Of a stretch of 64,000 nucleotides of DNA, positions 2,132 through 49,034 are shown piece after piece. The DNA is taken from contig OX638368.1 in the NCBI GenBank assembly GCA_951812925.1, positions 82,256,909-82,320,908 of the forward strand, read 5' to 3'. Position numbers and translations under genes: made by a program. The notes below the pieces were generated by a model. It searched no databases. It was not told where the DNA came from and saw only the letters and a program-made list of their open reading frames with translations. Each line of letters opens with the position of its first letter. The first letter of the stretch is position 1. Origin of the DNA: Calliopum simillimum. Lineage: Eukaryota > Arthropoda > Insecta > Diptera > Lauxaniidae.

Positions 2132-3180
2132 ACACGGTGGTTTTTAAAAAATTTCAACTTTTTGAAATACCACCCGCGATTTCTTTCGGGGATAGTGTTG
2201 GGGGACCCTTCTAGTATCAGAATCCGGGAACCGCGAAATCGAACGTCCAGCCGTTTTTTTTTTTCGACATTTTAGTTTTTTTAACGATTTTTGAGAATGT
2301 TTTCTTAAAAGTTATGACTATTTTAAGACGACATGTTGCAGCAATACGTATATAAGAAATACTCGTACACTATATTTTAGTGGCACCCCTGTGAGTTTGC
2401 ACTTCATAATGTAATTTTTAAATGGTCATAACTTTGCAGATAAACATTTAATAACTCAATTGAAAGCCAAAAGAAAGTACTAAATGTTTCTGGTAATAGA
2501 AATTCACAGAAGAATTTTGTGTGTCCTGCATATAACATCCAATATAGCCAAAAATCGTGTTTTTGCACTTTTTTAACTTTTTAGGTAAAGATATCTCCGA
2601 CAAAAAAAAAGATATCGTTATCGGTTTGATTGAGTTTTCAAGAAAAAAACTAGGGCTATTAACTGTCGTATCGTATTTTACGGCATAATATTATCTTTTC
2701 TTGTTATATAACTTCAAAAATAAGAAAAAAAGTGGTGTCCTTTATACGTATATGTAGGGATATCTCAAAGTCCAGAAGTAATAGAGCAATTCTAAGACTG
2801 GATTCGGACTAAGCATCGAAAATCACATCTGGTGTGACTATTGCTGTATCCGGTTTTTGTTTGTGTTTTTTTATAAACGAAAAAACCGATTTTTTTTAAA
2901 AATAAATGGTGCGGAAACGATACCTTTTATATGTATGTATGCATGTATGTATATATATACACATGTATATATATTACACATATATACATATACAAGTATA
3001 TATATGTACGTACATACATATATACTTATGTGTACATAATATGTATATAAATCCGAGACATTCTCGACGTTCGATTTCGTGATTCCCGGATTCTGATACT
3101 AGAAGGGTCCCCCAACACTATCCCCGAAAAAAATCTCGGGTGGTATTTCAAAAAGTTGAAATTTTTTAAAAACCACCGTG
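2132..3180. mobile_element. palindromic CACGG element, copy A (deleted form)
   Basis: The ends are perfect inverted CACGGTGGTTTTTAAA / TTTAAAAACCACCGTG. A 4-bp duplication GGCA flanks both sides (2128-2131 and 3181-3184). The left arm (2132-2300) matches the end of copy B at 7155. From about 2300 on, the sequence follows the inverted half of copy B, including a TATATG/CATATA microsatellite at 2925-3045. This copy is therefore a palindrome that lost most of one half. It has no coding capacity. The CAC end and 4-bp target duplication resemble the Chapaev/CMC group; this assignment is inference. Confidence 0.85.
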
Positions 3181-3184
3181 GGCA

Positions 3185-5146
3185 AAACGCTTTTTACTCA
3201 AGAGGGAGGCGTCTTACGGAAAAAGTGCACATGGCATAAAATGCTTAGAATCATCCAAGGAACAAGTGCGAATAGTTGACTGTGTGCTTATGCATGCTTA
3301 TGCAAAAAAATAACATTTCGAATGTTGAAATATTCCATTACACTACAGCCTAATATTCCTCTAGCTCTGACAGATATATGATAAAATTGTCTTATACAGT
3401 AAACATACCTAGCAGCATTGTTAAAGGCAACATTAAGTTTATGTTATGTTGAGAATGACAGTCCAGGTAGCTTAAAGTAGCGTATATTTTACTCACGATA
3501 CTGTTGATATGATTCGTACAAGTTAATTTTGAAATGAATATAAAACCGAGGTTTTTCGTTCGGTACGAGTTCTAAGCATACGAGACCAATATATATTGGT
3601 GGAATATCATCAAAGCTCAAGTCTCTTCTTGAAAGTACTTTCTATTTAGAAGGGAAAATAAATAGGAGGTTTTTATTGGCCCATTTGACTAGGTCAGATA
3701 AGTCATCATTGAGTCTATCAGCTACGTCTTCCACAAGTCCGATGGGTCGAGAGATATATAGTTGAACATCATTTGCATAACCATGAATATTGCAATATTT
3801 AGAAACTGCAAATTTGAGAATAACAAAGGACCTGAGATAGAACCTTGTGGAACCCCCTGACTAACAAATTTTCAAGATGAAAAGGTATTTTCAACACGAA
3901 CCTGTTGCTGCCTACCACCTTAATAATTAGCTATTAACTTAATAGCACTGTCACTAAAATTGAAAAATGTTCGAAGCTTTCTGCAAAGCAAATGCTTTAG
4001 AGAATAGGCAGAGAACTGTCAAATGGTTTTGATCAAAATGGGTACTAAGACCGATTCGAAAACCAGACTGCAGGCAGGATACTAATGGGTCAGAAATCGT
4101 TGGGTACAGAAGCAGAAGCTGTCTTAGCTATCGAAAGAACAGTTGCAATTTTCCAAATATTAGGAAAACAGAAAGTGGTAAAGCAATGATTAATTATATG
4201 TGTCATAGGAGACAAGACATAAGGTAAAATAATTTTAATAAACTTTATAGGAGTGCCATCAATCCCCACAGCATTAAAGGTTATTTTACATACACCAATA
4301 GCTACATCTTATTCACATACACACGGGTGTTCAAAACATTTTTTAACCCTCAAGTTGCATCACTCGGAAAGTTTTTATATTTTCTTGTTCAGGGTACTTT
4401 CCTTATCATATAAAAAAAATTAAGAAAATCCGTCGGGCGCTTTTTTTTTAAATCGAATTTTCCGTTTTTGGCAAAGTTGAGTTAAGTCAAAAATAACATG
4501 CGAAAACTAAAATCAATTAAAAGGAACACGAATAGTCATTTCTAACTAACTTTTTAATGCTGAATTCAAATCCGTTAACAAAATCGATCTATCGCTACAG
4601 AATTTTGAGATATCCTAACCCAAAAATTACCAAAATATAAGATTTTTCGTGAATTTTTCCTACTTTTGAGGTTATGTAACACGACAGAGTAATACTTCGT
4701 CATAAAACCTGTTATGTTAGTCAAAAGCACTTATCTTTGCGTACAAAACTCTTTTTAAATCGTATCAATATCTTTTTTTTTCAAAATTATATCAATATCC
4801 TTTTTTTTTCTAGGAATTATCCTAACCTAAACCTAACCTGATGCAACTTGAGGGTTAAAAAATGTTTTGAACACCCGTGTATACCAGAGAAATGAAACAA
4901 GTTCTAAGTCTAATGTAGAAAGGTTACCGTTGTGCAAGAAGTAATCGTTTTAACACTAAGGGTCTAAGTTGCATTTAAAATTACCTATACTATATATCCC
5001 ATAATTACGAATATTTTGCTATAACAGTTTCGGTGTTAGATTGGTACTGAATTTTGAGCTGAAAAATTTCCTTTTTTCTTGCCTAATCAATAAATTAGCG
5101 TCATTCCGAGTTCTTCTAAATAATTCCCAGTTAGAAGTCGCACAAA
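3185..5146 (-). pseudogene. Jockey/CR1-like LINE reverse transcriptase, decayed
   Basis: Minus-strand translation in shifting frames gives a continuous series of reverse transcriptase blocks. From N to C these are NWELFRRTRND..NLLIRQEK (about 5130-5050), FNAVGIDGTPIKFIKIILP and NHCFTTFCFPNIWKIAT (4300-4180), DF*PISILPA (about 4100), SDSAIKLIANY (about 3950), VPQGSISGPLLF (about 3850), and YANDVQLYISRPIG, where the catalytic YADD has become YAND (about 3760). The C-terminal NVAFNNAARYVYCIRQF..ILGCS follows (about 3430-3340). Stops and frameshifts are scattered, so this is a dead copy. It is interrupted by a MITE at 4321-4880. At its 3' side (about 3185-3265) it runs into the insertion site of palindrome A. 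Family naming beyond Jockey/CR1-like is uncertain. Confidence 0.85.
4321..4880. mobile_element. 560-bp MITE with 42-bp terminal inverted repeats
   Basis: The ends are ACACGGGTGTTCAAAACATT inwards at 4321 and its exact inverse ending at 4880. The inverted repeat is perfect over 42 bp. The direct duplication ATAC lies at 4317-4320 and 4881-4884. The insertion splits the reverse transcriptase relic, whose reading resumes on both sides. Internal sequence (4650-4800: TTTTGAGGTTATGTAACACG, then AATATCTTTTTTTTTC) is distantly similar to the inside of the larger palindromic CACGG elements at 2132-3180 and 7155-9065. The MITE is therefore probably a divergent member of the same superfamily. Confidence 0.9.
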
Positions 5147-5881
5147 GGGGTATTGTATGCGCTTTTACGCATTTAATTGAAAAAAAAAAAAAAAATGTTT
5201 GAAGTACCAGCTTTTTTTGATAACGTTTTAAAGATAATTAAATTCTGCGTCACAAACAATAAAAATTGTTGACCTAACATCACTAGTAAAAAAGTTATAT
5301 GCGGTTGAAGATCAACTTTTTTTGCTTTCGTTCGCGCGCTGTGACAAATTTGAATTTTTTGGCTTTTTTAAAGTACATTTTTATTAAAAAAAAAGTTTTT
5401 TGTGGAAAACGTTTTAATGGAACCTTCAACTTTAGGTAATTGTGGTTCTTACTACATAAAAGTTTTTTTGAGTTAATGTTTAAAAATCTTGGTTTATGTA
5501 TATTAAATATGTGTTAAAAAGTTAAGGTTTCTTATTATTCAAGTGGAGTTAAAGTATTTTAGGTTGTCATAATTATGTGTTAGAAAAATGCATTGATAGA
5601 TTTATATGTAAAATCGATCTTTGCAAATATATGACTAAAAGTTCAATTAAATAAAATCAATTTTCAATATAAAATGTCATTAAGTAACACACTTAAAAAA
5701 TTCTTAAAAGTTATTTGGGAGAACACGCCCTGATAAGGTGGAAACACCTGCAATCGGTATTGAATTTGTTCCAAAGGAACAACTATACCAAATATCAATA
5801 AATAACACAAAAACAACAATTATGATATATCAATACGTATTAACACACAAATAAAACTGGCAAAAAGTCGGCTTCGCAGCC

Positions 5882-5949
5882 GGGCAAGGCTGGTGCAGTG
5901 GTAACGACTTCTGCTACCAACCTGGAGATCCTTGGTTCGTCTCCCGCCC
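5882..5949 (+). ncRNA. tRNA-like Pol III promoter segment, copy 1
   Basis: A 68-nt stretch begins GGGC and ends GCCC, so the ends can pair like an acceptor stem. It has an A box TGGTGCAGTGG (5891-5901, 10 of 11 to TRGCNNAGYGG) and a B box GGTTCGTCTCC (5934-5944, 10 of 11 to GGTTCGANTCC). The spacing of the boxes is that of a tRNA. It lies in the repeat unit upstream of the hammerhead. The seven-base acceptor stem is incomplete, so this is a tRNA-derived promoter rather than a working tRNA gene. Confidence 0.75.
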
Positions 5950-6037
5950 AGACCAAAAACACAAAAAGTTTTCAAACTTGCAATTTTTCAATTATAATTA
6001 ATTTAGTAAAATAAATATAATTATAATTACAACAAAA

Positions 6038-6084
6038 ATAGTCTGATGAGTCTTTGTGGCGAAAGACGAAACATATGTCACTAT
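6038..6084 (+). ncRNA. hammerhead self-cleaving ribozyme, copy 1
   Basis: All core elements are present in order. Stem I 5' strand is ATAGT (6038-6042). The core is CTGATGA (6043-6049). Stem II is GTCTTT (6050-6055), loop GTGGCG, AAAGAC (6062-6067). Core GAA follows (6068-6070). Stem III is ACAT/ATGT (6071-6078). The cleavage base C17 is at 6079 in the triplet GUC, and stem I 3' strand is ACTAT (6080-6084). Both stems I and II are perfect. Stem III is a bare 8-nt palindrome without loop, which is weak in one molecule but can pair between two copies, as known for newt satellite 2 and cave-cricket satellite hammerheads. Predicted cleavage lies between 6079 and 6080. Open stem I gives type I topology. 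Confidence 0.93.
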
Positions 6085-6429
6085 AGCCGTGTTTTTAATC
6101 CGTTCCTTGATTTGTCATAATTATGTGTTAGAAAAATGCATTGATAGATTTATATGTAAAATCGATCTTTGCAAATATATGACTAAAAGTTCAATTAAAT
6201 AAAATCAATTTTCAATATAAAATGTCATTAAGTAACACACTTAAAAAATTCTTAAAAGTTATTTGGAAGAACATGCCCTGATAAGGTGGAAACACCTGCA
6301 ATCGGTATTGAATTTGTTCCAAAGGAACAACTATACCAAATATCAATAAATAACACAAAAACAACAATTATGATATATCAATACGTATTAACACACAAAT
6401 AAAACTGGCAAAAAGTCGGCTTCGCAGCC

Positions 6430-6497
6430 GGGCAAGGCTGGTGCAGTGGTAACGACTTCTGCTACCAACCTGGAGATCCTTGGTTCGTCTCCCGCCC
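6430..6497 (+). ncRNA. tRNA-like Pol III promoter segment, copy 2
   Basis: This matches 5882-5949, displaced by 548 bp, with A box at 6439-6449 and B box at 6482-6492. I see no base differences. Confidence 0.75.
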
Positions 6498-6585
6498 AGA
6501 CCAAAAACACAAAAAGTTTTCAAACTTGCAATTTTTCAATTATAATTAATTTAGTAAAATAAATATAATTATAATTACAACAAAA

Positions 6586-6632
6586 ATAGTCTGATGAGTC
6601 TTTGTGGCGAAAGACGAAACATATGTCACTAT
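6586..6632 (+). ncRNA. hammerhead self-cleaving ribozyme, copy 2
   Basis: This copy is identical to 6038-6084. CTGATGA is at 6591-6597, GAA at 6616-6618, and the cleavage site after 6627. Two ribozymes exactly 548 nt apart in one orientation would release a 548-nt monomer from a transcript that spans both. Confidence 0.93.
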
Positions 6633-6808
6633 AGCCGTGTTTTTAATCCGTTCCTTGATTTGTCATAATTATGTGTTAGAAAAATGCATTGATAGATTTA
6701 TATGTAAAATCGATCTTTGCAAATATATGACTAAAAGTTCAATTAAATAAAATCAATTTTCAATATAAAATGTCATTAAGTAACACACTTAAAAAATTCT
6801 TAAAAGTT

Positions 6809-7154
6809 GTGCAAGGTTTTCATCTTGTTATGATTTTCTTTAACTATGGACTGTCCATAATAAGTGTTAAAAATTTGGTTGTGCCATGTTTTGCTCCTTC
6901 GGAATTATTAAACTTTTTGTAAGAGAACTCCAGTCGCTATAATCATAAGAAGCAAGTGCAGCCACCAACAATGCAATGATTTTTTTTCCTTTTGTTTTGT
7001 TTGTCTTCTTAAATTTTGATGGACCCTTTTAGTTCAGGTATTTTTGTAATAAAAAAGTGGTTTTTGTTTTGTGAAAAAGTGTTTTGTTATATTTAAATTT
7101 TTATTTTTTTTTTTTTGCTCGTTAGTTTAAAATTAGGTGCATTTTGGCTGTATA
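6809..7154. other. unassigned stretch
   Basis: This lies between the tandem repeat and palindrome B. A minus-strand frame reads TYYGQSIVKENHNKMKTLHNF without further support. I recognise nothing reliable here. Confidence 0.3.
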
Positions 7155-9064
7155 CACGGTGGTTTTTAAAAAAATTCAACTTTTTGAAATACCACCCGCG
7201 ATTTTTTTCGGGGATAGTGTTGGGGGACCCTTCTTGTATCAGAATCCGGGATCCGCGAAATCGAACGTCCAGCCGTTTTTTTTTTTTCGACATATTAGTT
7301 TTTTTAACGATTTTTGAGAATGTCTCGGATTTATATACATATTATGTACACATATATATGTATGTACGTACATATATATACTTGTATATGTATATATGTG
7401 TAATATATATATATGTATATATATACATACATGCATACATACATATAAAAGGTATCGTTTCCGCACCATTTATTTTAAAAAAAAATCGGTTTTTTCGTAT
7501 ATAAAAAAACACAAACAAAAACCGGATACAGCAATAGTCACTCCAGATGTGATTTTTGATGCTTAATCCGAATCCTGTCTTAGAATTGCTCTATTACTTC
7601 TGGACTTTGAGATATCCTTACATATATGTATAAAGGACACCACTTTTTTTCCTATTTTTGAAGTTATATAACAAGATAAGATAATATTATGCCGTAAAAT
7701 CTGGTATGACAGTTAATAGCCCTAGCTTTTTTCTTGAAAACTCAATCAAACCGATAACGATATCTTTTTTTTTGTCGGAGATATCTTTACCTAAAAAGTT
7801 AAAAAAGTGCAAAAACACGATTTTTGGCTATATTGGATGTTATATGCAGGACACACAAAATTCTTCTGTGAATTTCTATTACCAGAAGCATTTAGTACTT
7901 TCTTTTGGCTTTCAATTGAGCTATTTAATGTTCATCTGCAATATTTCTCTACAAAGTTATGACCATTTAAAAATTACATTATGAAGTGCAAACTCACAGG
8001 GGTGCCACTAAAATATAGTGTACGAGTATTTCTTACATACGTATTGCTGCAACATGTCGTCTTAAAATAGTCATAACTTTTAAGAAAACTATTACAAGAG
8101 ACCACTTGTTAGCTCATTTTGAAGATAAAGAATGGTTTTAAATGCTTCGGTTGGTAAAAAAGATCAGAAAAATTTCGTCCGTACTGTATACAACCTCAAA
8201 TATAGCCGAAAACCGAGATTTTTCGCTTTAAGTTTCATGGTGTGATTTTGAAGTTAACATAACTTTGCAGAGAAATATTGCAGATGAACATTTAATAGCT
8301 CAGTTGAAAGCCAAAAGAAAGCACTAAATGCTTCTGGTAATAGAAATTCACAGAAGAATTTTGTGTGTCCTGCATATAACATCCAATATAGCCAAAAATC
8401 GTGTTTTTGCACTTTTTTAACTTTTTAGGTAAAGATATCTCCGACAAAAAAAAAAAGATCGTTATCGGTTCAATTGAGTTTTCAAGAAAAAAACTAGGGC
8501 TATTAACTGTCATACCAGATTTTACGGCATAATATTATCTTATTTTGTTATATAACTTCAAAAATAGGAAAAAAAGTGGTGTCCTTTATACATATATGTA
8601 AGGATATCTCAAAGTGCAGAAGTAATAGAGCAATTCTAAGACCGGATTCGGATTAAGCATCAAAAATCAAATCTGGAGTGACTATTGCTGTATCCGGTTT
8701 TTGTTTGTGTTTTTTTATATACGAAAAAACTGATTTTTTTTAAAAATAAATGGTGCGGAAACGATACCTTTTATATGTATGTATGCATGTATGTATATAT
8801 ATACATATATATATATTACACATATATACATATACAAGTATATATATGTACGTACATACATATATATGTGTACATAATATGTATATAAATCCGAGACATT
8901 CTCAAAAATCGTTAAAAAAACTAAAATGTCGAAAAAAAAAAAACGGCTGGACGTTCGATTTCGCGGATCCCGGATTCTGATACTAGAAGGGTCCCCCAAC
9001 ACTATCCCCGAAAAAAATCGCGGGTGGTATTTGAAAAAGTTGAATTTTTTTAAAAACCACCGTG
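7155..9064. mobile_element. 1.9-kb palindromic CACGG element, copy B
   Basis: The terminal words are CACGGTGGTTTTTAAAAAAA and its inverse. TATA is duplicated on both sides (7151-7154 and 9065-9068). The two arms, about 7155-7962 and 8256-9064, are nearly exact inverse copies around a loop of about 290 bp. Each arm carries a TATATG-type microsatellite (7330-7450 and 8780-8890). Open frames in either direction (for example 7706-7984 plus and 8292-8513 minus) are mirror images and therefore not genes. The whole element can fold into a hairpin of about 0.8 kb. It is non-autonomous, with a CAC end and a 4-bp duplication. Confidence 0.9.
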
Positions 9065-9068
9065 TATA

Positions 9069-9910
9069 CATAGACATATAGTTGTTCCAAAAGTGAGCTC
9101 AAACAAAAATGTTTTGATTTTAATAAAGAGTACACATTTAAGTTAGTTTTTATGTAAAAAAGGGTTGCGGGTTTTTGCGCGGCTGTGAGAAATTTTCATT
9201 TTTTTAAGGCTAACTGACATGTCCAATATGTATGAAAGTGGAGCAAAAAATAAATAAAAAGTTAAATACAGACATATAGACAGATAATTACCCCCAAAAA
9301 CTGCAGAGGTTGTCAATAAAGTACGCTGAGTTTTTAAAAATTTTTGAAGGTCATTAAGAGGTCGCTCAGCGCCGTTTTAGGCAAAATCTCGGCTTAGTAC
9401 AGTTTTTATTTTATTACGATTTAAGAAACGCTCGGAATGAGTCATTCTATATAACAAATTTTTTGTCTTGAGTCAAGGTATATAAAAACATTATATCTCG
9501 AATTTAAAATCATTCATATATTGTTGTTTTAGATAAAAAAACCGAAAGAAAACATATTTTCGATATTTCGGCCTGTTGTAAAACTCTTAAACTACATCTT
9601 GGAAAAACTGTTTTTCATAAGTTTATCATAAAATCATACCAGAAACAATTTTCTATAGCTTCTTAACCCATTATATCCTGTTTTTATGGGTCTTCTTGAC
9701 CCTTTTTTCCTAAAACTTGGTTAAAATGGGTTAAAATGTTCTACAAAAATATTCTTCAAAAAATTTCAGTAGGATTCACCGAAGATAGAAATTCTTAAAA
9801 CTATAGAATAATGCGTAAAAAATTTGATGATATTGTGCAACTGCATAAGTTTTCTCCTTTTTATGCATAATTAACTAAAAAAATAAGTTATTATAACCCT
9901 CAATAGTCTG
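9069..9910. other. no gene seen; part shared with 36.5 kb
   Basis: The stretch 9630-9790 (ACAATTTTCTATAGC..CTTAACCC and ATGGGTTAAAATGTTCTAC) matches 36455-36545 and marks another dispersed repeat. The rest shows no coding or structural signal. Confidence 0.5.
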
Positions 9911-21520: not shown

Positions 21521-22619
21521 TTGGGTGCACAACTTAAAAACCGGAATTTTTTAGCGAAATTTGATGCTTTATTGTGGAAAAATGTTACAATATATTTTAT
21601 TCAAAGTATTGTCCATTGGAAGCTACAACATTTCCCCATCTTTCAGGCAATTTATGAATTCCATCCCAAAAAAATTGCGCCGGCTTGGCGGCCAAAAATG
21701 AATCGAGCCAATTTTCGATATCTTGAACTTAAGTGAACCGTATTTCTGATAGGGCATTCTGCATCGATCGAAACAAATGGTAGTCAGATGGTGCAAGGTC
21801 TGGGCTATAAAGCGGGTGAGGCAAAATTTCCCATCCGTAGTTTTCCAGATAATTTTTGATTGGGGCAGCAATATGTGGTCGAGCGTTATCGTGGTGGAAA
21901 ATGATTGACTCGTGTCTGGTTACATACGTTGGCCGCTCTGCCTAGATTTTTTGCTTCAATCGGATCAATTGTTGACGATAGAGTTGAGCATTAATGGTTT
22001 GGCCACCTGGCAACAGCTCATAATGGATCACACCTAGCTGGTCCCACCAAATACAGAGCATTACCTTCGAAGCGTGAATATTTGGCTTCGGCTGTGATGG
22101 GCCGGCCTCACCTTTCTTGACATACGCTGTTTTGCGCTTGGGATTATCGTAATGGATCCACTTCTCATCGCCAGTGACAAAACGATGCAAAAAACCCTTC
22201 CTTTTGTGGCGTTCAAGCAGCATTGTGGACATCAAAAATCGGCGTTCGACGTCCCTTGGCTTCAACTCGTATGGCACCCAATTTCCCATCTTTTGAAAAA
22301 TTCCCAAGGCTTTCAAGCGTCTGGAAATTGTTGCTCGATCAACTTCCAATGGTTCTGCAAGTTCTTTTTGCGTTTGACATGAATCTTGATAGAGTAATGC
22401 CTCCAATTCTTCATCCTCAAACTTTTTCGGCTGACCAGGACGTTCTTTGCCTTCGACATCAAAATCACAAGCAAACTATGACTTTCCGCAGTAGTTTTCT
22501 TTGCAAAAAAATGACCCAGCAGTACCTTCAAAATGACATATATATAAAATTCGAGCTTTCACGATATTTGTTAGTCGGACATCCACCGTCAAATTCCGGT
22601 TTATAAGTTGTACACCCAA
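21521..22619 (-). mobile_element. mariner transposon, copy 1
   Basis: Terminal inverted repeats TTGGGTGCACAACTTA..AACCGGAATTT and its inverse ending CACCCAA are flanked by the TA target (21519-21520 and 22620-22621). It is inserted in repeat R. A relative at 34685-35582 shares more than 90% of its sequence by eye. It carries a damaged minus-strand transposase. Confidence 0.92.
21597..22531 (-). pseudogene. mariner transposase, inactivated
   Basis: The central frame (21942-22406) contains the helix-turn-helix block QKELAEPLEVDRATISRRLK, then WVPYELKPRDVERR, the first catalytic Asp in FVTGDEKWIHYDNPKRK, and KVMLCIWWDQLGVIHYELL. After a frame break, HHDNARPHIAA gives the second Asp. [13 protein letters not shown] follows with the third (DD34D signature), then QFFWDGIHKLPERWGNVVAS and the stop near 21597. 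Damage: the N-terminal HFFAKKTTAESH block runs directly into a different frame, losing the segment present in copy 2. There are frameshifts at about 22406 and 21942, and a TAA after SEIRFT that copy 2 shares in the same place. Confidence 0.9.
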
Positions 22620-34684: not shown

Positions 34685-35582
34685 GTGTACAACTTAAAAA
34701 CCGGAATTTTTTAGCGAAATTTGATGCTTTATTGTGGAAAAATGTTACAATATATTTTATTCAAAGTATTGTCCATTGGAAGCTACAACATTTCCCCATC
34801 TTTCAGGCAATTTATGAATTCCATCCCAAAAAAATTGCGCCGGCTTGGCGGCCAAAAATGAATCGAGCCAATTTTCGATATCTTGAACTTAAGTGAAGCA
34901 TATTCCTGATAGGGCATTCTGCATTGATCGGAACAAATGGTAATCTGATGGTGCAAGGTCTGGGCTATAAAGCGGGTGAGGCAAAATTTCCCATCCGTTG
35001 TTTTCCGTTGTTTTCCAGGTAATTTTTGACTAGGGCAGCAATATGTGGCCGAGCGTTATCGTGGTGGAAAATGATTGACTCATGTCTGGTCGCATACGTT
35101 GGCCGCTCTGCCTGGATTTTCCGCTTCAATTGGATCAATTGTTGACGATAGAATTGAGCATTAATGGTTTCGCCACCTGGCAACAGCTCATAATGGATCA
35201 CACCTAGCTGGTCCTGACCAGGACGTTCTTTGTCTTCCACATCAAAATAACCACTTTTAAACCACTCACGACAGCTTGATTCAGCTGGAGCATAGTCTCC
35301 ATAAACTTCTACAAGAATGCGATGACTTTCGGCAGCTGTTTTCTTTGCAAAAAAATGACCCACTAGAACCCCCCCGCAAATGCTGTCTTTTTCTCCAATT
35401 TTCGAAGTTATTCATTGTGAAAAATAATAATGATGCACACAAGATAAAATTGTTTTGTTGACTGATTTTGACAGCTGTCAAATGTACCTTCAAAATGACA
35501 TATATATAAAGTTCGAGCTTTCACGATATTTGTTAGTACGGACATCCACCGTCAAATTCCGGTTTTTAAGTTGTACACCCAA
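34685..35582 (-). mobile_element. mariner transposon, copy 2 (left end lost)
   Basis: The right end CACCCAA is followed by TA. The left end starts only at GGTGTACAACTTAAAAACCG, lacking TTGG. About 50 bp of the host palindrome, seen intact at about 59530-59580, are also gone. A deletion therefore removed the left tip together with host DNA. The copy keeps about 115 bp of 5' region (35369-35484) missing in copy 1. Confidence 0.88.
34757..35363 (-). pseudogene. mariner transposase with internal deletion
   Basis: The N-terminal part reads HFFAKKTAAESHRILVE, then GDYAPAESSCREWFKSGYFD and VEDKERPGQ. It then jumps to [35 protein letters not shown] and NYLENN. The helix-turn-helix, the linker and the first catalytic Asp are deleted. 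Copy 1 keeps these but lost part of what copy 2 retains. The C-terminal TAA after the SPDLAPSDY block is shared with copy 1. Confidence 0.88.
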
Positions 35583-40654: not shown

Positions 40655-41514
40655 TTCATTTCATTTCTTTCATTTCATTTCATTTCATTTCATTTCATTT
40701 CATTTCATTTCATTTTATTTCATTTCATTTCATTTCATTTCATTTCATTTCATTTCATTTCATTTCATTTCATTTCATTTCATTTCATTTCATTTCATTT
40801 CATTTCATTTCATTTCATTTCATTTCATTTCATTTCATTTCATTTCATTTCATTTCATTTCATTTCATTTCATTTCATTTCATTTCATTTCATTTCATTT
40901 CATTTCATTTCATTTCATTTCATTTCATTTCATTTCATTTCATTTCATTTCATTTCATTTCATTTCATTTCATTTCATTTCATTTCATTTCATTTCATTT
41001 CATTTCATTTCATTTCATTTCATTTCATTTCATTTCATTTCATTTCATTTCATTTCATTTCATTTCATTTCATTTCATTTCATTTCATTTCATTTCATTT
41101 CATTTCATTTCATTTCATTTCATTTCATTTCATTTCATTTCATTTCATTTCATTTCATTTCATTTCATTTCATTTCATTTCATTTCATTTCATTTCATTT
41201 CATTTCATTTCATTTCATTTCATTTCATTTCATTTCATTTCATTTCATTTCATTTCATTTCATTTCATTTCATTTCATTTCATTTCATTTCATTTCATTT
41301 CATTTCATTTCATTTCATTTCATTTCATTTCATTTCATTTCATTTCATTTCATTTCATTTCATTTCATTTCATTTCATTTCATTTCATTTCATTTCATTT
41401 CATTTCATTTCATTTCATTTCATTTCATTTCATTTCATTTCATTTCATTTCATTTCATTTCATTTCATTTCATTTCATTTCATTTCATTTCATTTCATTT
41501 CATTTCATTTCATT
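40655..41514. repeat. very long (ATTTC)n pentanucleotide array
   Basis: About 170 tandem ATTTC units with one early TCTTTC slip (near 40667) and one CATTTTATTTC variant (near 40714). From about 40720 to 41513 it is uninterrupted. Frames of 300 and 316 codons over it encode only (FHFIS)n and are artefacts. Assembly across 860 bp of pure repeat may have fixed an arbitrary length. Confidence 0.97.
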
Positions 41515-46255: not shown

Positions 46256-49034
46256 TCGGGTGTGGGCACTAGTGTGTATTGAAATATATGGACGAGTTTT
46301 AAAACCCAATTCCACACTCAAATTATGAAAGAAGAAAGGTAAACAACTCAGGAAATATAAATTTTTTGACTTTAAAATAAATTCCTAGCTGGCCAAATGG
46401 CCATTGTTTATAAAAACCGAGTGATTTTGCACTGGAGCCTATCTAACGGTAAATTTTTTTCCAAAAAACACCATAGATATCGATTTGTGGTCTAAAATAA
46501 CTTATGTGTGCAAATTTTCAGAGAGATCGTATGACGTGCAGGAGCGTCAGCAAAGGAATAAGAAACGATTATCTTCAATGAAACGAATACTTTTTGTACT
46601 GGAGCCTATCTAACGGCAGATTTTTTTCCAAAAAACACTACAGATCTCAGTTCGTAGTCGAAAACAACTTATGTATGCAATTTTTCAGAGAGATTGTATG
46701 ACATGCAGGAGTGTCAGCAAAGAAAAAAAAGCACTTATTTTCAATCAAACGTTTAATTTTTGTACTAGAGTCCATCTAACGATTCATTTTTTTCAAAAGA
46801 AACTTGTGGTACTTGATTCGTCATAAAAAATAAACTATGCACCCAAATTTTAAGATTGGTGGAAGGACGTGTGGGAGTGTCAGCGAAGGATTAAAAAATG
46901 GTATACAGCCATTTCATGCCAATCGTAACAAGATCTGGCACACCCCTTCCGATTTCGCTGAAATTTGGTACATGGTTTCGTTTCATGCTTAAACTTTGAG
47001 AAATGGCAAAAAAAAAAAAAATATTGCGATTTTTTTTGTGGCTTGTGGAGGGGTGCAAAAAGTCGAAAAATAGGTAAAATGTAACAAACTCTCCTCAAAT
47101 AATTACCAATAACTTGGCCATTTCTTAACCGATTTTCATGTTTAGATCTGTTTTGGAAAGGCATTGAATAAGGCTATAGGCTCAAAATAAAATTTTTCGT
47201 AGTTGATAAAAAGTACTACATTTATTACTATTTTAGTACTAAACTACAATAAACGTGCCCGAGTACACTTTTGTTACCTTACAAAATATTTTTTTTTGGA
47301 AAGAAAAAAAAAAAAATCTTTCAGTCAAAAAAGAGAGAAAATTGGTATGTCTCGAGGCTAAGAAGTTATGATTTTTTGGAAATTTAAAAAAAGGTCCGAT
47401 CAGAAAATGGCCCATAGCTGGAACATTTCTTATCTCATTTTAATGTTTGGACCATTTTTAGAAAGGGATTGAATCATTCTATGCGCACAAGTAAAAGTTT
47501 TTTGTATTTGGTAAAAATTACTAAATTTGCTATTTTAGCACTAAACTACTAAAAACGCTTTAGTATCTATTTTCGACCTTCCAAAATATTTTTTTAGAAA
47601 AGAAGACAAAATTACCTTTCAAATGAATCTAAAATTTGGATGGTACCATTAATGGTATAGGAGAATTGATTTTTTGAACATTTCAGTACATGCAATATTT
47701 CGTACAATGTAGGTTTTTTTGTAATTTACATCATTTTGAATTCCTCGAAAGATTTTGAAAATGAAATGCGCAATACGGTTACGGCCTAAGGGAACAAAAT
47801 CATGAAATTTCTGGGTCCCTGGTATGGCTTTTACATTTTGAAAAGCGTTGGAGAGTTGCGATGCAGGTGCTTCATATTCAGCAATTGCACAATATCGATA
47901 AATTATGTCGGACTTTTAACTATTTGCTCATTCGAAAGGTGCCCTGGCATCAGTTTTTTGGCCTTGGTGAGGTTTTTGTAAACTTGCTCTTGAAGTATTT
48001 CGTTTGAAGGAGCCACCAATACCATCTCATAGCCCTTTTTCGTGAGATATAGCTAAAAAGTGCCATTGTGCGTCGAAACAAATTTTTTCTATAAGTCCCT
48101 TTGGACGTAATCGTATTGCAGCGCGGCTTATAGCCTGATTCAATGCCTTTCCAAAACAGGTCTAAACATGAAAATCGGTTAAGAAATGGCCAAGTTATTG
48201 GTAATTATTTGAGGAGAGTTTGTTACATTTTACCTATTTTTCGACTTTTTGCACCCCTCCACAAGCCACAAAAAAATCGCAACATTTTTTTTTTTTTGCC
48301 ATTTCTCAAAGTTTAAGCATGAAACGAAACCATGTACCAAATTTCAGCGAAATCGGAAGGGGTGTGCCAGATCTTGTTACGATTGGCATGAAATGGCTGT
48401 ATACCATTTTTTAATCCTTCGCTGACACTCCCACACGTCCTTCCACCAATCTTAAAATTTGGGTGCATAGTTTATTTTTTATGACGAATGAAGTACCACA
48501 AGTTTCTTTTGAAAAAAATGAATCGTTAGATGGACTCTAGTACAAAAATTAAACGTTTGATTGAAAATAAGTGCTTTTTTTCTTTGCTGACACTCCTGCA
48601 CGTCACACAATCTCTCTGAAAAATTTCATACATAAGTTGTTTTCGACTACGAACTGAGATCTGTAGTGTTTTTTGGAAAAAAATCTGCCGTTAGATAGGC
48701 TCCAGTACAAAAAGTATTCGTTTCATTGAAGATAATCGTTTCTTATTCCTTTGCTGACGCTCCTGCATGTCATACGATCTCTCTGAAAATGTGCACACAT
48801 AAGTTATTTTAGACCCCAAATCGATATCTATGGTGTTTTTTGGAAAAAAATTTACCGTTAGATAGGCTCCAGAGCAAAATCACTCGGTTTTTATAAACAA
48901 TGGCCATTTGGCCAGCTAGGAATTTATTTTAAAGTAAAAAAATTTATATTCCCTGATTTTTTTATCTCTCTTCTTTCATAATTTGAGTGTGGAATTGGGT
49001 GTTCGTTTTTCGATACACACTAGTGGGCACCCCT
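46256..49034. mobile_element. 2.8-kb palindromic element E
   Basis: The outer words GGGCACTAGTGTGTAT (46264) and ATACACACTAGTGGGCACCC (ending 49033) are mirror images. The arms of about 0.9 kb (46256-47166 and 48136-49034) are close inverse copies, for example CTAGCTGGCCAAATGGCCAT against its inverse. The spacer of about 970 bp has its own degenerate tandem repeat (about 305 bp). Each arm contains three 166-bp units. Frames at 46880-47164 and 48220-48414 mirror each other and are not genes. The transposon class is unknown. Confidence 0.88.
46431..46930. repeat. three 166-bp units in left arm of element E
   Basis: ACTGGAGCCTATCTAACGG recurs at 46431 and 46598, and as ACTAGAGTCCATCTAACGA at 46764. 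Each is followed by TTTTTTTCCAAAAAACAC and later by GAGAGATCGTATGACGTGCA, GGAGCGTCAGCAAAGGA. The third unit is more diverged. The right arm carries the inverse set (about 48370-48870). Confidence 0.85.

Follow-up and report, generated by a model that had tools for sequence, protein, structure and literature searches.

A 548-bp unit repeated in tandem in this fly genome is probably a non-LTR retrozyme of the animal type that carries a tRNA-derived promoter segment internally and is moved by a Penelope-type enzyme. That a Penelope-type enzyme moves the unit is, taken by itself, highly likely, since the 3′ ends of its arrays fall at two sites, these sites are paired at the two ends of head-to-head arrays, target duplications flank many insertions and the flanks are AT-rich. 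What is new is a longer animal retrozyme that has a tRNA-type promoter and whose insertions give evidence of Penelope-type mobilisation. The mover of animal retrozymes has been an open question. Dozens of insertions here carry start sites of the Penelope kind, so that it can now be tested, and end mapping of the same kind could be applied to the retrozymes of other animals. In the portions of the literature available, Penelope-like elements have been named a strong candidate for moving animal retrozymes (PMC7229834), and retrozyme repeats have been described as lacking any conserved motif that would point to the partner (PMC7761336). No paper showing Penelope-type insertion ends for retrozymes was found in the literature searched.

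The repeated unit in the window

The window, meaning the whole 64-kb stretch of DNA analysed, contains 2.27 head-to-tail units of 548 bp each at 5564-6808; the insert proper spans 5564-6805, as chance identity may explain the final three bases. Positions within the unit are given as q coordinates, in which q1 is 6258, q548 is 6805 and the predicted ribozyme cut is q370/371.

5564-6808, + strand: tandem array, 2.27 × 548 bp
5564-5709, + strand: 5′-truncated first unit, q403-548
5710-6257, + strand: full unit, q1-548
6258-6805, + strand: full unit, q1-548, terminating at start site B
5882-5949, + strand: tRNA-derived segment; A box 5891-5901, B box 5934-5944 (one mismatch)
6430-6497, + strand: second tRNA-derived segment; A box 6439-6449, B box 6482-6492
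5969-5988, + strand: T-runs (TTTT, TTTTT) past the promoter and ahead of the ribozyme that may terminate Pol III; also at 6517-6536
6038-6084, + strand: type I hammerhead, predicted cut 6079/6080 (Rfam at loose threshold, motif descriptor)
6586-6632, + strand: type I hammerhead, predicted cut 6627/6628 (Rfam at loose threshold, motif descriptor)

The tandem array named in the original prediction was confirmed, with its start corrected from 5566 to 5564. The two full units differ at 2 of 548 positions (5719 and 5726), and 5564-5712 is identical to 6660-6808 at all 149 bases; the 147-bp direct repeat that had been presented as a feature of its own is merely the partial third unit. No ORF of 110 aa or more was found inside the array, and the unit is non-coding and non-autonomous. 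Its GC content of 31.2% lies below the 45% that bounds retrozymes. The circularly folded RNA of the unit was unusually structured, even with local composition kept in the shuffles (z −5.8, −5.1 and −4.7 for blocks of 548, 100 and 60), and the antisense strand was also well structured (z −5.2, −3.6 and −3.9 for the same blocks). Exact patterns of 27-30 bases gave no matches in a viral contig collection, and the exact ribozyme pattern gave none in a general genome-contig collection.

A complete hammerhead in each unit, 548 nt apart, had also been proposed, and on this the motif descriptor and the standard pairs agreed. The motif consists of a 5-bp stem I, CTGATGA, a 6-bp stem II, GAA, and a 3-bp stem III with a 2-nt loop; all 14 pairs are standard, C stands at 6079, and the conserved core, three stems and open stem I place it in the type I class. 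When both strands of the window were searched, a strict motif descriptor gave exactly these two matches, with none in 3000 dinucleotide shuffles, while a looser descriptor and one admitting wobble pairs returned the same two matches with 2 and 11 hits in the shuffles, respectively. Rfam at gathering thresholds gave no match in the whole window; at a loose threshold, Hammerhead_1 matched both motifs with 21.5 bits (E 0.038 for 1601 bases; the gathering score is 34). Self-cleavage is predicted. The local minimum-energy fold of the RNA (−8.9 kcal/mol) is not the hammerhead, whose pairings were calculated at −5.0 to −5.9 kcal/mol, and a 95-nt local segment was no more stable in folding than its shuffles (z 1.3). 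Inspection showed complementary GGC/GCC in loop II (GUGGCG) and in the inner loop of stem I (AGCCG), a possible loop contact of a kind not rare by chance. Because the stem III sequence, ACAUAUGU, is palindromic, two ribozymes on the same transcript could also pair as a dimer. Dimer pairing has been proposed for the hammerhead repeats of Aedes aegypti which, in the available text of PMC3088659, resemble the unit in being dipteran and interspersed and in having a palindromic stem III; that text contains no analysis of promoter or insertion.

The tRNA-like A/B-box segment predicted at 5882-5949 also proved real. Its A box matches the consensus, the hammerhead begins 88 nt past its end, and the box pair is restricted within the window to the two units, against 10 hits in 2000 shuffled windows and none in 20,000 shuffles of the GC-rich block alone. 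Default ARAGORN found no tRNA, and the Rfam tRNA model gave no match in the region 5400-7000 with E up to 10; relaxed ARAGORN drew a decayed tRNA-like fold. The unit has both an A and a B box, as do tRNA-derived SINEs, which would be transcribed by Pol III. The further suggestion that Pol III read-through would yield a 548-nt RNA is doubtful. T-runs occur downstream of the promoter at 5969-5972 (TTTT), 5984-5988 (TTTTT) and, just past the ribozyme, 6092-6096 (TTTTT), and they make it unlikely that Pol III transcribes the full unit. The boxes may instead give rise to a short Pol III RNA or bind TFIIIC, or the unit may be transcribed by read-through from Pol II.

The schistosome elements Sm-alpha and Sj-alpha have a Pol III promoter. 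These SINE-like elements also carry hammerheads (PMC2770079, PMC8490949, in the portions available), and of 2368 tRNA-Gln genes predicted in S. mansoni, 2342 were assigned to SINEs and found to resemble Sm-alpha; the combination of tRNA and hammerhead, which had been thought to lack precedent, is therefore preceded by them (PMC2770079). They share with the unit a tRNA-derived sequence, a type I hammerhead and a high copy number, a likeness drawn from published description and not from sequence alignment, and differ from it in being dispersed and SINE-like.

Several other features were seen in the window. An inverted repeat at 7719-8500 has 267-nt arms, 94% complementary, around a 248-nt gap; ORFs that resemble each other at 7115-7504 and 8715-9077 hint that the arms extend further. 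At 40655-41514 the motif TTCAT is repeated about 172 times with 99% regularity. Two arrays of 167-bp period (46425-46803 and 48502-48879) have units that are apparently reverse complements of each other, and mariner-type transposase fragments (Transposase_1) lie at 21942-22406 and 34965-35363.

Copies and insertion ends across the genome

The 690-Mb assembly comprises 334 contigs, among those listed six large ones (C1 to C6); the window lies on C1 (C1:82256909-82320908). Rfam Hammerhead_1 gave no genome match with E up to 10 (73 of 75,100 candidates scored), and the strict pattern was used for the genome count because the Rfam search missed even the window copies. This pattern gave 1934 matches (944 + 990), up to 232 of which are a sister variant, and none when read backwards. 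A search with the unit returned at least 209 matches, those listed being 95-100% identical; these counts are lower bounds, as 40 of 1749 candidates were scored. Many further copies with a conserved ribozyme were thus recovered by the hammerhead pattern and by the search with the unit, the latter a check that the original prediction had proposed. The mechanism of that prediction held by about half; the Penelope-type insertion ends and the sister arrays at contig ends, which it did not include, could not have been seen in a single window.

Forty-seven arrays were mapped, 39 from the best-scoring rows listed by the unit search and 8 from 19 further listed places, and the array of the window was mapped as well; young copies are over-represented by this choice of best-scoring rows. 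Outside the window the unit is mostly 545-547 bp, and tandem arrays reach ten units. The family is young. Among the majority letters of the arrays, 2 of 2167 cells in the ribozyme were changed, against 84 of 25,132 for the whole unit; the two changes, of the cleavage base from C to A and of one loop II base, are both presumably tolerable. Single units vary more, some of them in the ribozyme core (for example at q368 in arrays L034 and L044, and in L054 with C changed to G at q370), and all 11 units of array L063 have a lengthened GAA. The latter (C5:79063200-79072100) is a mirror-like array of 6.5 kb in which units of about 547 and 509 bp are mixed.

The 3′ ends of the arrays defined two putative start sites for reverse transcription, with a hairpin between them.

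6752-6771, + strand: putative start site A (q495-514), where 29 of the 75 array 3′ ends fall; repeated at 6204-6223
6801-6805, + strand: putative start site B (q544-548), placed from 38 of 75 array 3′ ends (also 6253-6257)
6776-6792, + strand: weak AC-rich hairpin between sites A and B, −2.3 kcal/mol (also 6228-6244)

Together, 67 of the 75 ends fell at A or B, compared with 3.4 expected if ends were uniform, and 8 fell outside both. The cut right arm of L064 was excluded from 3′-end and pair counts, and L055, which has the same flanks as L054, from the end, pair, duplication and private-letter analyses. Both sites are A-rich and lie about 46 nt apart, B following AATTCTTAAAA and A following TTAAATAAAA, at about 127 (A) and 178 nt (B) downstream of the predicted ribozyme cut; the spread inside site A is partly due to alignment continuing into similar target letters. 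Of those 8 ends, three (in arrays L032, L046 and L070) lie at q471, which may be a third start site, and the sister unit is without sequence from about q471 onward. In 28 of 46 classed arrays the copies are head-to-head, so that both outer ends are 3′ ends. A stands at one end and B at the other in 20 of these, B is combined with another site in 6 and A with another site in 2, with no A/A or B/B pair; shuffling of the ends gave none of 100,000 without a same-site pair. Two of the 20 A/B arrays (L053 and L057) depend on short arms of 81 and 86% identity. The 18 arrays of one orientation terminate at B (11) or at A (7).

Exact direct repeats of 10 bp or more flanked 24 of 44 arrays, compared with 43 of 1892 mismatched flank pairs (28 of 44 and 384 of 1892, respectively, at 8 bp or more); L044, L064 and L071 were excluded from this count because of N or a stretch edge. 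Duplication lengths reach 19, with chance or microhomology letters included. The array of the window itself has no recognisable flanking duplication. The GC content of array flanks was 0.236, compared with 0.332 for the window. Arrays L054 and L055, about 13 kb apart on C4, have identical flanks and an identical duplication, and their shared flanks and duplication mark them as a local segmental copy.

These ends closely resemble those of Penelope-like elements in the available parts of the published accounts. The Penelope-like protein studied by Frangieh and others cuts AT-rich DNA on both strands and extends both, and copying starts at two adjacent internal sites, mostly within a stem-loop rich in A and C that lies downstream of the hammerhead; the 30-40 bp tail of Penelope copies is thereby explained (PMC11167929). 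Rotifer Penelope inserts include head-to-head inverted repeats with an optional 31-bp tail and duplications of 8-10 bp, some being joined by microhomology without duplication (PMC3846280). The unit likewise has a hammerhead upstream of two adjacent starts, a tail at one end, head-to-head copies with similar short duplications, and AT-rich targets. It differs in that it encodes no protein, has a full hammerhead with stem III, and has its starts about 127 and 178 nt from the cut, rather than about 85-92 nt as in the anole element (PMC11167929). Without an ORF for a reverse transcriptase and GIY-YIG nuclease of its own it is not itself a Penelope-like element, and it appears to behave as a Penelope template while encoding nothing.

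A SINE mobilised by the reverse transcriptase of a LINE, which would prime at A-rich sequence and twin-prime in the manner of L1, would account for the tRNA-type promoter, the A-rich 3′ ends, the target duplications and the head-to-head inversions. This reading is nevertheless unlikely, given two fixed internal starts of which the same one is never used at both ends, arrays of up to ten units, and no poly(A) tail at the junctions inspected. A TRIM or LTR retroelement of the Helenus type, in which the 147-bp repeat would be the LTR, was suggested by the tandem arrays, the tRNA-like sequence and the terminal direct repeat of the window copy, and Helenus/TRIMp3 is also non-autonomous with a tRNA-like sequence; according to the available text of PMC10886601, it has true LTRs, a PBS, a PPT and 4-5 bp duplications, unlike the unit. 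End mapping contradicted this reading, since 5′ ends are variable and duplications longer than 4-5 bp, and by inspection no polypurine tract precedes the repeat. The LTR interpretation of the repeat was therefore rejected as extremely improbable.

The assignment to animal non-LTR retrozymes agrees with the type I hammerhead, low GC, tandem copies with one hammerhead per unit, structured RNA, duplications longer than 4 bp when present, and lack of LTR, PBS and PPT, all in common with the elements of PMC7229834 in the part available. The unit differs from these in its length of 548 nt, its tRNA-type promoter and its insertion signature; a circular RNA, as expressed by those elements, is a prediction for it. 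Typical repeats are 150-450 bp in that source, a range that the unit (545-548 bp) exceeds and the sister unit (385-410 bp) does not, although its discussion allows 150 to over 1000 nt.

Mobilisation model and template

In the proposed model, the hammerheads would release unit-length RNA from transcripts spanning two units, and this RNA may be circularised by a ligase of the host. A reverse transcriptase of the Penelope kind, supplied in trans and equipped with a GIY-YIG nuclease, would bind the RNA downstream of the ribozyme and cut AT-rich DNA on both strands, and the cut ends would prime copying at internal sites A and B. Repeated passage along the unit would produce tandem arrays in which the 3′ ends are fixed while the 5′ ends vary, and extension of both DNA ends would produce a head-to-head array with A at one end and B at the other. 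Units, ribozyme motif, promoter boxes, end positions, A/B pairing, duplications and copy number were read directly in the DNA, whereas cleavage, ligation and the enzyme are inferences of the model. A GIY-YIG search of the genome, in which 150 of 209 candidates were scored, gave at least 100 matches at an E of 0.01 or lower, in open frames of up to 1022 aa (long frames lie, for example, near C5:100794742, C1:89200406 and C1:11927870), the nuclease domain alone having been searched. Two GIY-YIG matches on small contigs (C104:11024-11251 and C183:63226-63453) lie in frames of 622 and 612 aa and are perhaps, as a guess, bacterial UvrC of a symbiont.

Whether the template was a circle or a linear multimer was judged to be evenly balanced. 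Array 5′ ends were scattered; the fullest 3-nt window, with 5 of 76 ends, was q371-373, at the predicted ribozyme cut. The associated p of 6.6e-5 assumes uniform ends, which these are not, and is optimistic, as unexplained clusters of four ends each within 3 nt also occur at q81-84 and q234-236. The ends at the cut hint that cut RNA served as template. If instead a Penelope-type enzyme copied linear multimeric read-through RNA, with the hammerhead a relic or acting later and no circle formed, cut linear RNA would also yield 5′ ends at the ribozyme cut. This alternative, to which we give somewhat less than an even chance, follows a published scenario: in the available part of PMC11167929, the ribozyme of the anole Penelope is dispensable for insertion and uncut RNA is the main substrate, so that circles are not required.

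Divergence between arms was no lower than between arrays (946 of 36,764 letters versus 0.016; without L053, L057 and L063, 225 of 20,501, or 0.011, versus a between-array median of 0.0113). Arm divergence therefore failed as proof of a single template, and confidence in a circle was lowered; the linear reading is favoured to the extent that these values give no sign of a single template. Against it, the ribozyme is identical in the two families, a loop II insertion aside, despite differences between the units at 46 of 363 aligned letters, and this identity, together with the low number of changed ribozyme cells within the arrays, suggests that the ribozyme is selected.

Private letters (n = 81; L063 excluded) were found in one unit in 75 cases, in some units in 5 and in all units in 1 (L038, both arms), and of the 5 shared by at least two units at positions that both arms cover, 4 occurred in both arms. 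A few indels extend across all units of an array. The rarity of letters at intermediate frequency fits the birth of an array in one event, a point against the linear template which nonetheless leaves the choice of template undecided. Growth of arrays by unequal crossing-over is disfavoured by the same rarity. A satellite spread at the DNA level by unequal exchange, with the hammerhead incidental, would be in keeping with tandem arrays in general and with the tip of C1, where a block of two units and an inserted element is repeated, yet it is very unlikely in view of dispersed insertions with duplications, fixed 3′ ends and the few intermediate-frequency letters.

Sister arrays at contig ends

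The first five matches of the strict pattern lay at the start of C1 and had a loop II 4 nt longer. The sister unit there (L078, 406 bp) is identical to the window unit at 317 of 363 aligned letters and in the whole ribozyme except loop II, and is without about q472-548, i.e., sites A and B. Rfam Hammerhead_3 matched it with 37.8 bits (E 2e-6), under the gathering score of that family. The A and B boxes are kept in both families, the sister B box being the consensus, with T5, T6 and T5 runs between B box and ribozyme in the sister unit, a further reason to doubt Pol III read-through; default ARAGORN found no tRNA on the C1 tip.

The exact 34-base sister variant had 98 + 134 matches, and all 100 matches listed lie near contig ends. 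The sister unit (385-410 bp) occurs at or near 7 of the 12 ends of the six large contigs, always with its 5′ end outward; spacing is 406 bp within blocks at the C1 start, 398 at the C3 start, 385 at the C3 end and 410 at the C4 end. The array was read at the very tip at the C1 start, both C5 ends and the C6 start (the terminal 150 bases of the latter three being sister satellite), and was placed there from spacing at both C3 ends. At the C4 end, where listed matches reach 11.8 kb from the contig end, the array was placed near the end. The C1 end, both C2 ends, the C4 start and the C6 end terminate in other sequence. At the C1 start and both C3 ends, the array passes proximally into window-type letters to about q503, near site A, and beyond this into the same subtelomeric sequence; with junction and subtelomere identical, these are copies of one junction and not three events. 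A 42-mer of this subtelomeric sequence has just five occurrences in the whole assembly, at the C1 start and both ends of C3 and C5, at distances of 3.6 to 21.9 kb from the respective tip.

Arrays in a single orientation at contig ends, presumed to be telomeres, are the mark of dipteran terminal repeats, and the common subtelomere and uniform orientation argue for true chromosome ends, though long arrays can also end contigs in the interior of chromosomes. The sister family thus appears to be a telomere-type satellite with a hammerhead, with a telomeric function suggested by its position. Penelope-type reverse transcriptases are related to telomerase, and HeT-A likewise points its 5′ end outward. 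We put forward, tentatively and as a minority expectation, that sister units form the telomeres of this fly, a hammerhead-processed and probably circular RNA being copied onto the ends by a Penelope-type reverse transcriptase. If this is true, long complex telomere repeats of flies would be retrozymes living or domesticated at the tips, for which the sister arrays offer a concrete RNA-templated model. Terminons are known from rotifers. As described in the available text of PMC7761336, they are telomere-attached retroelements with Penelope-type hammerheads, in which they resemble the sister arrays, and giant coding elements, unlike the non-coding unit here. Dipteran telomeres of long complex repeats, for which an RNA intermediate is suspected, have similar long-unit arrays at chromosome-scale scaffold ends; the accessible text of PMC12051294 mentions no hammerhead in them, unlike the sister units. 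The open-licence literature searched yielded no report of hammerhead repeats at the chromosome ends of Diptera.

Two further observations were made at the contig ends. In the C1 tip array (C1:1-3586), a 668-bp insert with CCCAAC-type inverted ends and, by inspection, a TA duplication breaks stem I of the ribozyme and has been duplicated with the array (L078:1226-1893 and 2708-3375). The C2 end (L081) and the C4 start (L082) have a 143-bp repeat in common, with 90% identity.
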